Source of the DNA: Fictibacillus sp. FJAT-27399
GTDB taxonomy: Bacteria > Bacillota > Bacilli > Bacillales > Fictibacillaceae
DNA: 50,987 nucleotides
NCBI RefSeq assembly: GCF_001510655.1
Contig: NZ_LMVC01000002.1
Coordinates: forward strand, 1,367,003-1,417,989
Direction of reading: 5' to 3'
In this document: positions 9,773-19,100 of the stretch, one piece after another
Numbering within the stretch: the stretch's first letter is position 1
Layout of the letters: each line of letters begins with the position of its first letter
Notes under the pieces: model-generated
What the model was told of the DNA's origin: nothing
What the model saw: only the letters and a program-made list of their open reading frames with translations
Database searches by the model: none
Made by a program: the position numbers and the translations under genes

Positions 9773-10099
9773 TTACCCATTAACGGCTATCTTCTTCCGT
9801 TTTGTGCGATTGCTTAAAAGCTCCGATTTTTCAAGTACAGCATAGATCGAGCACCAGGACCTCTTGGAAAAATAGATGGGAACACTCTGTTTGTTCGCCT
9901 TTTTCTTAATCGCTGCTGAAAACTCATGGTTTATAAAATCGGTCAGGACCAGAACCAAGTTCACATGACTTGGAATCTCCTTTTGAGACATTCTAGCTTT
10001 TCTTCCGCTCACATGAATGATCTCCCTTATGTCTTGATGCTCCAGTTTCTTCGTAATTTTCCCAAGATGATCTCCACCAACAATTAATAACGACGACAT
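9773..10099 (-). CDS. DUF2325 domain protein downstream of SAM riboswitches
   Basis: A 108-residue protein with the DUF2325 pattern: SLLIVGGDHLGKITKKLE at the N-terminus, a Rossmann-like alternation (NLVLVLTDFINHEF) and a basic C-terminus (FSKRSWCSIYAVLEK). The domain has no established function. ATG at 10099 is preceded by AGGGAG. It is the first gene after the two SAM-I riboswitches and three terminators at 10155-10606 on the same strand, with only about 55 bp between the last hairpin and the start. As the sequence stands its transcription would be controlled by S-adenosylmethionine, unless a private promoter lies in that gap; I see none that is convincing. Confidence 0.85.
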   Translation of the reverse strand: MSSLLIVGGDHLGKITKKLEHQDIREIIHVSGRKARMSQKEIPSHVNLVLVLTDFINHEFSAAIKKKANKQSVPIYFSKRSWCSIYAVLEKSELLSNRTKRKKIAVNG

Positions 10100-10154: not shown

Positions 10155-10200
10155 TAAAAAAAACAAAGGCATACATCCCAAAAAGAGAGTTGCCTTTGGT
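10155..10200 (-). terminator. Terminator 3 of the SAM-riboswitch leader
   Basis: On the minus strand CAAAGGCA and TGCCTTTG pair around an 18-20-base loop, followed by eight T. The bases before it (GCTGATTGG, then AAACCAAAGGC) repeat those before terminator 1, pointing to duplication of a leader unit. Confidence 0.8.
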
Positions 10201-10264
10201 TTTCCAATCAGCAGCAAAAAAGAATATACAAATATCCCTATGGATTTACTCTGTTTTATACCGT

Positions 10265-10308
10265 AATAAAAACCTCTTCCTACTACGATCACGTAATAAG
10301 AAGAGGTT
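10265..10308 (-). terminator. Terminator 2 (expression platform of SAM riboswitch 2)
   Basis: AACCTCTTC and GAAGAGGTT form a perfect 9-bp stem followed by TTTATT on the minus strand. The upstream arm with its flank (CTTCTTATT, 10295-10303) is exactly complementary to the P1 3' strand AATAAGAAG of aptamer 2 (10327-10335), the expected antiterminator. Confidence 0.85.
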
Positions 10309-10326
10309 AGACATAACCAAATTACA

Positions 10327-10428
10327 CTTCTTATTGTCCAAGCCAAAGCTTGTTGGAATTGGCACAGTTCCCTCTGTGGGACCGCTGCCGAGACTTCAAA
10401 GGGCCAAATCCCTCCACTGAAAAAAAAG
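10327..10428 (-). promoter_or_regulatory. SAM-I (S-box) riboswitch aptamer 2
   Basis: The minus strand shows the S-box core in order: GTGGAGGGA, TTGGCCC, a TGAAGTCTCGGCAGC junction (consensus TGAAACCTCGGCAACC), a P3 hairpin with GGTCCC/GGGAAC, TGTGCCAATTCC, and a P4 hairpin CAAGC-TTTG-GCTTG. The P1 3' strand AATAAGAAG (10327-10335) pairs with CTTTTTTTT (10420-10428), which is also the poly-U tract of terminator 1. SAM binding should stabilise P1 and allow terminator 2; without SAM, AATAAGAAG is free to form the antiterminator. Confidence 0.88.
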
Positions 10429-10475
10429 AAAACCAAAAGGCCATGTCTGCTAATGTTGAGACACGGCCTTTGGTT
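10420..10475 (-). terminator. Terminator 1 (expression platform of SAM riboswitch 1)
   Basis: On the minus strand AACCAAAGGCCGTGTCT pairs with AGACATGGCCTTTTGGTT, and a T-rich tract follows. Its poly-U appears to double as the P1 5' strand of aptamer 2. Confidence 0.88.
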
Positions 10476-10500
10476 TACCAATCAGCTGCACGATATTTTT

Positions 10501-10606
10501 TTACTCAATAAAAAGCTGATGCTTGTTGGATTTGGCACAGTTCTCTCGTTAAAGAGTCCACTGCCGAGGTTTCGCAGGGCCAATTCCCTCCACCTCTCAG
10601 AATAAG
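10501..10606 (-). promoter_or_regulatory. SAM-I (S-box) riboswitch aptamer 1
   Basis: The minus strand reads through the S-box consensus: GAGAGGTGGAGGGA, TTGGCCC, GAAACCTCGGCA, P3 with CAGT/ACTG, GTGCCAAATCC and P4 AAGC-ATCA-GCTT. P1 is TTATTC (10600-10605) with GAGTAA (10501-10506). A short ATCAGCT in P4 can pair with AGCTGAT just before terminator 1, a possible antiterminator. The class is established (RF00162-type); assignment here is by eye. Confidence 0.92.
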
Positions 10607-10782
10607 AAAAAATTTATGGAGTTTTTAATTCATATAATCCTCATCGGATTAATTGTTATTAAAACAGGTATGCAATGGAAAGTCAATAACTTTTTTGAAA
10701 AATCTAAATTTTATTTATGTGAATGCTTACTACATAAATCCAGCCGTCCTTCCTCATACTATCTTTTGGGAGGTTATTCGTT

Positions 10783-18407: not shown

Positions 18408-19100
18408 ATGAACCATTATTGCAAAAGAATGTATCCCCAATTTCCCGGACAAGGGGCTGGCCAGGGATCAGGACAGCAGACACCTGGATTCCATGGATTT
18501 TATGGCCAGGGTCAACCCAGTCAGCAAGGATTAGGCGGGCAGCCTCAGATGCCACAATTTCCCGGGATGTTCCCGGGGATGCCAGGCGGCCAGACCCAGC
18601 AAGGCGGACAGCAAGGTCAGCAGTCTCAGCAGGGACAGGGCGGGCAGCCTCAGATGCCGCAGTTTCCTGGGATGTTCCCCGGGATGCCGGGCGGGCAGGG
18701 ACAGCAAGGCGGACAGCAAGGGCAGCAGCCTCAGCAAGGACAGGGCGGACAGCAGCAGATGCCGCAGTTTCCTGGCTTGTTCCCCGGGATGCCGGGCGGG
18801 CAGCAGCAAGGCGGGCAGACCCAGCAAGGTGGACAGCAAGGGCAGCAGCCTCAGCAAGGACAGGGCGGACAGCAGCAGATGCCGCAGTTTCCTGGCTTGT
18901 TCCCCGGGATGCCGGGCGGGCAGACCCAGCAAGGCGGACAGCAAGGGCAGCAGCCTCAGCAAGGACAGGGCGGACAGCAGCAGATGCCGCAATTTCCTGG
19001 CTCGTTCCCTGGGATGCCGGGCGGGCAGCAGCAAGGCGGGCAGGGACAGCAAAGCCAGCAGGTATTTTACCCATATTACGGCTATCCCGGAATGTTTTAG
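18408..19100 (+). CDS. Repetitive Gly/Gln/Pro/Met-rich protein
   Basis: A 230-residue low-complexity protein of unknown function. It has a short unique head (MNHYCKRMYPQFPGQGAGQG), about five repeats of 35-40 residues built from MPQFPGMFPGMPGG, GGQQGQQ and QQGQGGQ modules, and an aromatic tail (VFYPYYGYPGMF). No signal peptide or membrane segment. Composition and aromatic tail recall spore coat and self-assembling surface proteins; that is inference. ATG at 18408 has an excellent AAGGAGG upstream, the repeats stay in frame and a terminator follows at 19263, all arguing for a real gene although every other frame is also open. Confidence 0.75.
   Translation: MNHYCKRMYPQFPGQGAGQGSGQQTPGFHGFYGQGQPSQQGLGGQPQMPQFPGMFPGMPGGQTQQGGQQGQQSQQGQGGQPQMPQFPGMFPGMPGGQGQQGGQQGQQPQQGQGGQQQMPQFPGLFPGMPGGQQQGGQTQQGGQQGQQPQQGQGGQQQMPQFPGLFPGMPGGQTQQGGQQGQQPQQGQGGQQQMPQFPGSFPGMPGGQQQGGQGQQSQQVFYPYYGYPGMF
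18537..19050 (+). repeat. Tandem in-gene repeats of about 104-120 bp
   Basis: Five units each beginning near GGGCAGCCTCAGATGCCGCA or a variant. The third and fourth units are almost identical at the DNA level, so copy number is likely to vary by slippage or recombination. Confidence 0.85.

Follow-up and report, generated by a model that had tools for sequence, protein, structure and literature searches.

A probable deletion scar resembling a tandem SAM-I riboswitch before a DUF2325 gene of Fictibacillus, and a small hairpin element found before sulfur genes of Bacillota

Introduction

The SAM pocket of the SAM-I riboswitch (S-box; RF00162) is formed in part by J1/2 and P2, which also contain the kink turn. 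The RAT/LicT and ANTAR targets are RNA elements of another kind, small protein-dependent hairpins whose formation, close to the transcript 5' end, excludes that of an intrinsic terminator. For bacilli, an attenuator upstream of a sulfonate ABC operon and of one unknown gene is described in section 14 of PMC2965389.

We analyzed a stretch of 50,987 nucleotides from Fictibacillus sp. FJAT-27399 (hereafter the window), in which two aptamers of one class stand in series before one gene, as in tandem riboswitches. Both window aptamers are like the SAM-I riboswitch in sequence and in most helices, leader 2 shares its terminator/antiterminator layout, and the relatives of the locus lie in a sulfur-uptake context. 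However, both window copies are truncated, and the gene left behind them is DUF2325, which at the other Bacillales loci examined has a Fur-box-like site instead. Likewise, unlike in tandem riboswitches, the series in the window appears to result from loss of genes between separate leaders, and neither copy is complete. The first and third terminators of the locus begin in a 21-nt hairpin element, which resembles the RAT/LicT and ANTAR targets as a small hairpin that excludes a terminator early in the transcript, appears to differ from them in sequence, size, and internal loop, and has a gene set of sulfur metabolism. As a terminator-linked element before sulfonate uptake genes in bacilli, it resembles the attenuator of PMC2965389 and may, judged from the text of that section, be the same element. 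Beyond that paper, we recognized none among the publications listed by literature searches as describing the element; term look-up in PMC8632094, PMC7266159, PMC3766115, PMC2864571, and PMC6429828 returned no passage on such an element, which may be worded otherwise there.

Results and Discussion

Two SAM-I aptamers and three terminators lead to a DUF2325 gene

Two minus-strand segments of the window scored above the RF00162 gathering threshold of 44.4 bits, three U-tailed hairpins occur in series, and the leader points at an intact DUF2325 gene (Table 1), all in agreement with the original prediction. Only the middle hairpin satisfied the rule of the terminator scanner, and the other two were recognized by folding and by the scripted search for U-tailed hairpins starting in the element. 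The absence of another gene between the last terminator and DUF2325 was borne out as well, in that no ORF of at least 60 aa lies wholly within this interval; a mechanical ORF of 116 aa (10481-10131) overlaps the leader and was not counted as a gene. A divergent vanW-like gene lies upstream of the leader, and an LD-carboxypeptidase gene lies downstream of DUF2325. Promoter 1 is conserved in leader 1 of the relatives and was visible by eye only; it fails the -10 rule of the simple promoter scan, which found no promoter-like site on the minus strand from 10800 to 9700. The antiterminator complement of leader 2 is formed by 10335-10327 (AATAAGAAG) and 10303-10295 (CTTCTTATT). Hairpins 1 and 3 start with nearly identical stretches of 21 bases, GCTGATTGG[T/A]AAACCAAAGGC (10486-10466 and 10212-10192).

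The window pair has the two lowest scores among the 21 SAM-I matches of this genome, the next lowest being 70.4 bits. Two further close S-box pairs occur in the same genome, contrary to the expectation that tandem S-boxes would be rare.

Table 1. Features of the DUF2325 leader region in the window (positions of the window; L034 is the corresponding locus of the same-species genome G004)
Feature	Position	Strand	Basis and remarks
Promoter 1, TTGACT-17-TTTAAT	10658..10686	-	Read by eye; in relatives, promoter of the ssu operon leader
SAM-I aptamer 1 remnant (P2, P3, and half of P4 present)	10498..10608	-	RF00162, 57.2 bits; same-species orthologue, 75.8 bits (L034:7682-7786)
Sulfur hairpin element copy 1 (GCTGATTGGTAAACCAAAGGC)	10466..10486	-	Pattern search and folding
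Terminator hairpin starting inside element copy 1 (first terminator)	10420..10474	-	Fold, -23.9 kcal/mol
Junction of 10.85-kb deletion	10418..10424	-	BLAST against L034; left flank ends at L034:7933, and right flank starts at L034:18786
SAM-I aptamer 2 remnant (P3, P4, and P1 3' strand present)	10328..10427	-	RF00162, 49.9 bits, 5-nt gap in P2; same-species orthologue, 83.5 bits (L034:18771-18874)
Terminator of leader 2	10265..10308	-	Folding and simple scanner
Sulfur hairpin element copy 2 (GCTGATTGGAAAACCAAAGGC)	10192..10212	-	Pattern search and folding
Terminator hairpin starting inside element copy 2 (third terminator)	10156..10199	-	Fold, -22.2 kcal/mol
DUF2325 gene, 108 aa, intact	9773..10099	-	PF10087, 51 bits (cut-off 33.6)

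Deletion between two separate leaders as the origin of the tandem

In G004, a genome of the same species, both aptamers are intact, lie 11.1 kb apart, and flank ssu and peptide-type ABC genes. The order in G004 is a divergent vanW gene, aptamer 1, ssuB, ssuC, ssuA, a 112-aa ORF, FMN reductase, ssuD, and the peptide-type ABC set, followed by a promoter (TTGACT-17-TATATT), aptamer 2, and, directly behind it, DUF2325. From promoter 1 to DUF2325, the window shows two gaps of more than 20 bases each relative to L034: L034:7934-18785 (10,852 bases) is absent, as are 65-75 bases of leader 1 from L034:7775 (7775-7838/7851). The U-run of the first terminator hairpin extends to the junction of the large deletion, where 7 bases (TTTTTCA) belong to neither flank and leave the breakpoint ambiguous to within a few bases.

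The order vanW, aptamer 1, ssu, DUF2325, and LD-carboxypeptidase is kept in F. terranigra, F. solisalsi, F. enclensis, and F. fluitans, where aptamer 1 before ssu scores 76.3-80.5 bits. This shared order in four other species implies that the ssu operon is ancestral and was lost in the window strain. With G004 included, ssu genes separate leader 1 from DUF2325 in 5/5 relatives having DUF2325. For ssuD and ssuA, the best matches remaining in the window genome are paralogues with 31% and 22% identity, respectively. The peptide-type ABC set is complete in G004 only among the Fictibacillus loci compared, and another genome of the genus (G003) is without DUF2325 and without close ssu matches. On this comparison with one intact sister genome of the same species and four other species, we conclude that the window tandem is a deletion scar. 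Although the contig that holds the window measures 1.8 Mb, an assembly error is possible, as the junction joins two mutually resembling leaders.

The suggestion that a met gene had been deleted and its leader left behind was correct as to a deletion, since relatives keep ssu, and incorrect as to its content and place. The lost genes are ssu and the peptide-type ABC set, with no met gene among the families found (scan of 10 ORFs, the permease ORF L034:15830-16759 of the peptide-type set being left out), and the deletion site lies between the aptamers. Homologous recombination between the aptamers would give one chimeric aptamer; it was rejected because aptamer 1, hairpin 1, and a 5'-truncated aptamer 2 all remain, in that order. 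Chance similarity of the window aptamers to SAM-I was ruled out by alignment with the same-species orthologues. Elsewhere in the window, at 18537-19051, overlapping matches to one stretch of the sister genome indicate repeats in a low-complexity region.

Neither window aptamer is complete

Compared to relatives, aptamer 1 has lost its native P1 3' strand together with the switch terminator, and the P1 of its Rfam alignment is made up with A- and T-rich sequence. From aptamer 2, J1/2 and the 5' arm of P2 are missing; the Rfam alignment contains a 5-nt gap and four non-standard pairs there, and no P2 appears in the predicted fold. The G004 copy, in contrast, is predicted to form a complete aptamer followed by a terminator. 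The scores lie 18.6 bits (aptamer 1) and 33.6 bits (aptamer 2) below those of the same-species orthologues. Neither window aptamer has the complete P1-P4 fold with J1/2 and a kink-turned P2, and the expression-platform pairing between the P1 3' strand and the terminator 5' arm is kept in leader 2 and deleted in leader 1. Two complete aptamers before one gene are thus lacking in the window, and the G004 leaders precede different genes. Both window aptamers pass the RF00162 threshold despite loss of an essential part in each. What looks like a tandem riboswitch but is, by sequence comparison, a deletion scar can still satisfy family thresholds, which calls for caution in automated regulon annotation.

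That the two aptamers work as a tandem SAM-I switch and provide DUF2325 with a sharper or two-step SAM response, as originally predicted, is extremely unlikely in our view. Each aptamer lacks a part needed for the fold, as just described, the score losses against the same-species orthologues are large in both, and the tandem appears to have been made by deletion, with ssu genes separating leader 1 from DUF2325 in every relative that has the gene; the above-threshold RF00162 scores, the two other close S-box pairs in the genome, and the intact antiterminator complement of leader 2 are what such a switch could draw on. It is also very unlikely that one remnant still binds SAM well enough to keep DUF2325 in the S-box regulon via that leader alone. 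Leader 2 does keep P3, P4, and the P1 3' strand, with a U-run pairing with it in the Rfam alignment, and DUF2325 remains intact, its codons differing from those of the same-species orthologue at 6 synonymous and 2 non-synonymous positions; however, aptamer 2 is missing J1/2 and the 5' arm of P2, its predicted fold lacks P2, and the own promoter of DUF2325, present in G004, is deleted in the window. Aptamer 1, which retains P2 and P3, might bind SAM weakly via an A-U rich substitute P1.

The proposed SAM-linked role of DUF2325 finds partial support in G004, where an intact SAM-I aptamer with its own promoter lies directly before the gene. Among the six Fictibacillus genomes with DUF2325, G004 is the only one with an intact aptamer directly before it. 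The DUF2325 leaders of F. solisalsi, F. enclensis, and F. fluitans keep a promoter and the T2 hairpin without the aptamer, and F. terranigra has a remnant of a peptide-transporter ATPase instead of the aptamer. Judged from these genomes, the DUF2325 leader is unstable across the genus.

DUF2325 genes of other Bacillales carry Fur-box-like sites

DUF2325 relatives occur in 109 of 397 Bacillales genomes. Upstream DNA was checked for 68 of the 107 such genomes outside Fictibacillus, and a Fur-box-like site was scored as at least 11/14 matches within 200 bp to the Fur-box consensus TGATAATNATTATCA. Such sites were found upstream of DUF2325 at 66 of the 68 loci (28/28 best-scoring loci and 38/40 others), compared to 439/6800 shuffles and 3/68 coding controls, and at 0/5 Fictibacillus DUF2325 loci. 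Moreover, RF00162 was found at 0/28 of the best Bacillales loci within about 1.5 kb. We therefore rejected DUF2325 as a general S-box gene, a Fur-box-like site being present in the order instead. Sites of 14/14 and 13/14 matches precede DUF2325 in a genome of the same family (L028) and in Caldalkalibacillus (L033), respectively.

In Campylobacter, the DUF2325 gene cj1384c adjoins katA and is up 352-fold under bactericidal light, according to PMC9426514. Together, the Fur-box-like sites and the behavior of cj1384c imply that DUF2325 looks like an iron or oxidative-stress gene, which Fictibacillus would have put under sulfur control. We found no literature linking DUF2325 with a riboswitch, and no solved relative of DUF2325 by sequence at E<=1. 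A structure model of the protein (mean pLDDT 80) gave no match in PDB at E<=0.001, the top hits being weak and mixed.

A covarying 21-nt hairpin occurs across Bacillota

The element that opens hairpins 1 and 3 has the consensus GYYGA-YYGG-NNAA-CCRR-AGRY and folds into a lower stem of three pairs and an upper stem of four, separated by a GA/A internal loop and capped by an NNAA loop; six variants gave the same predicted structure. The core pattern GAYYGGNNAACCRRAG occurs 19 times, in 6 of the 7 Fictibacillus genomes (control 0), and five of these matches (L135, L139, L146, L150, and L152) fall outside the full pattern and probably arose by chance. The full pattern GYYGAYYGGNNAACCRRAGRY occurs 63 times, in 52 of the 397 Bacillales genomes, compared to 0 times for the reversed-pattern control. 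In the phylum sample, it gave 22 matches in 15 of 398 genomes, and 16 of these matches, in 12 genomes, lie outside Bacillales (control 1).

The element has the covarying secondary structure expected of a conserved cis-regulatory RNA. Across 24 distinct variants, 98.2% of cells are paired compared to 92.6% in shuffles, and neither this value nor the covariation score was reached by any of 500 shuffles (0/500 each). Pair 6-17 is UA in 17 variants, CG in 6, and other in 1, and pair 7-16 is UA in 10, CG in 9, UG in 4, and other in 1. No excess over shuffles was seen for pairs with changes on both sides (value reached by 88/500) or for further pair types (468/500). The search pattern allows only Y and R at the varying pairs and fixes the GA, AA, and A positions, whose invariance is therefore uninformative. 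A structure-based scan of the collected loci found an extra copy with A-U at pair 8-15 in the window genome (L011; control 0), which by eye sits between yezD and a cysH-like gene. In the loci searched, no model of Rfam 15 corresponded to the element: at gathering thresholds (4227 models), only RF00162 was found in the window and in L029-L035, and a search at E<=1 of 20 loci taken from the 30 designated L153-L182 returned no family covering the element.

The element overlaps terminators near promoters

A U-tailed hairpin whose 5' arm starts in the 3' half of the element was found at 60 of 71 distinct sites, compared to 345/1420 shuffles, and the remaining 11/71 sites had no qualifying terminator. 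Because the terminator 5' arm starts inside the element, element and terminator are mutually exclusive. A sigma-A-like promoter (at least 10/12 matches, at most 140 nt upstream) preceded 38 of 70 sites, compared to 68/700 shuffles, and at 33 of these 38 sites, 16-42 nt separate the end of the -10 hexamer from the element.

A conserved terminator shape or a mobile repeat, with no regulator involved, would account for an element that is short and usually tied to a terminator, and for the 11 sites at which the rule used found no terminator. We regard this explanation as unlikely, since the upper stem contains compensatory changes that a terminator alone would not need, the full pattern has at most three strict matches per genome, and copies stand before unrelated genes across a phylum.

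Genes behind the element are rich in sulfur uptake and assimilation

The downstream set consisted of 64 ORFs from the 71 sites, with 2 sites lacking an ORF by the rule used, 3 sharing an ORF, and 2 spurious-looking picks dropped. Within the best 25 of 39 families, these ORFs included ABC ATPases (12), sulfate-type binding proteins (11), TauE (9), DUF2292 (6), FbpA (4), Rrf2 (3), and two each of luciferase-like (SsuD), NMT1 (SsuA-like), YeiH-type, and DUF2325 proteins. By our reading, 38 of the 64 serve the uptake or assimilation of sulfur, namely SsuB-like (10), MetN-like (1), sulfate-binding (11), TauE (9), SsuA-like (2), SsuD (2), SsuE (1), CysH (1), and SfnB/DszC-like (1). The other 26 are not named sulfur genes and include DUF2292 (6), FbpA (4), Rrf2 (3), DUF2325 (2), and YeiH-type (2). 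Representatives reached the NCBIfam cut-offs for sulfate-binding protein, alkanesulfonate monooxygenase (SsuD), SsuE, CysH, SsuA, CysK, and MetK, and the SsuB-like, MetN-like, YeiH-type, SfnB-like, and one of the two SsuA-like representatives tested did not; an NCBIfam tally over the 64 ORFs was dominated by ABC ATPase models and was not used. Outside Bacillales, 14 downstream ORFs were scanned, with one spurious-looking pick dropped. They included MetK (one G560 gene behind two adjacent sites), cysteine synthase (2), and nitrogenase-like proteins (3) that fall below NCBIfam cut-offs, the rest being without evident sulfur link. The leftover terminators of the window pointed the way to this compact RNA element, which in many Bacillota marks genes for sulfate, sulfonate, cysteine, and methionine.

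A downstream set rich in sulfur metabolism, and the location of the element close to where transcripts start, together with a terminator that excludes it, would also be consistent with the core of a small-molecule riboswitch, sensing for example cysteine, O-acetylserine, or sulfide, rather than a protein target. We consider this possible, if doubtful, as only 21 nt are conserved and the short distance from the -10 hexamer to the element leaves little room for a larger aptamer.

DUF2292/YezD co-occurs with the element

DUF2292/YezD (PF10055) is encoded in 51 of 52 element-bearing Bacillales genomes compared to 139 of 345 others (Fisher p 2.6e-17, uncorrected for kinship). Outside Bacillales, it is encoded in 10 of 12 element genomes compared to 13 of 41 genomes of the same families. 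Thus, 139 genomes have DUF2292 without a strict element match, and 2 of the 12 element genomes outside the order are without DUF2292. The one exception within Bacillales, G165, has a doubtful site with the lowest hairpin score of all (7, still among the 60), a promoter-like site 95 nt away at 9/12, and no ORF by the rule used. A DUF2292 ORF lay within 16/71 element loci and 0/28 control loci, Fictibacillus loci being left out. This co-occurrence makes DUF2292/YezD, the one family examined as a partner, the leading candidate for a trans factor; it may instead be a regulon member and not the regulator.

In a single-sequence search of DUF2292 against PDB, an Alba protein was found at E 0.39, which is not significant. 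A profile search gave designed repeat proteins (best E 4e-05) over 9-26 residues only, with no stretch passing alone, and L3 at E 0.7, and was judged uninformative.

Proposed mechanism

We think it very probable that the window locus is a deletion scar in which DUF2325 would be expressed by read-through, and that terminators 1 and 3 contain the sulfur hairpin, likely an antiterminator. In the ancestor, leader 1 would have comprised a promoter, a SAM-I aptamer, a switch terminator, and a sulfur hairpin with its own terminator before the ssu sulfonate-uptake operon, and leader 2 its own promoter, a SAM-I aptamer, a terminator, and a sulfur hairpin with terminator before DUF2325. The comparison shows that a deletion of about 10.85 kb took the operon together with the promoter of DUF2325 and the 5' arm of aptamer 2. 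A second deletion, of 65-75 bases, took the P1 3' strand of aptamer 1 and the switch terminator. Neither window aptamer should still switch with SAM. With both aptamers broken, DUF2325 would depend on read-through from promoter 1 past three terminators, and its expression is probably weak.

The hairpin itself is most likely an antiterminator that would be favored when reduced sulfur is scarce, and a trans factor, perhaps YezD in view of its co-occurrence, would stabilize it. If the hairpin is a sulfur-responsive antiterminator, it would constitute a second RNA layer beside the S-box, provide a testable role for DUF2292/YezD, and predict sulfur functions for the genes behind it, including DUF2325, FbpA, and the nitrogenase-like genes. 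A broader proposal, which we put forward tentatively and hold to be distinctly doubtful, is a Bacillota-wide sulfur regulon under an antiterminator hairpin bound by the YezD/DUF2292 protein of about 50 residues. In Fictibacillus, this hairpin would be stacked behind SAM-I riboswitches, so that one leader would read SAM and a second sulfur signal, and iron-regulon genes (DUF2325 and FbpA) would have been moved under it.

Other arrangements of the element

Several single loci show the element in other settings. In other Fictibacillus genomes, a SAM-I-like leader, recognized by eye, and the element stand before FbpA-like genes in L134 (about 1280-1760) and L137 (about 1280-2240). The FbpA-like gene of L134 belongs to PF13076, and FbpA would be a second iron-regulon family with sulfur control; the element also precedes FbpA in L138, L141, and L186. 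Outside Bacillales, in L217, L219, and L224, the element lies before nitrogenase-component-1-like genes, possibly sulfur-salvage reductases. A second ssu locus in Fictibacillus G005 (L149) has the element directly before the ssuA gene. Lastly, on contig C6 of the window genome, at about 108 kb (L011:1716-1886), a SAM-I aptamer and a DUF2292/YezD gene are followed by a third copy of the element, here with a CUAG stem, its terminator, and a cysH-like gene.
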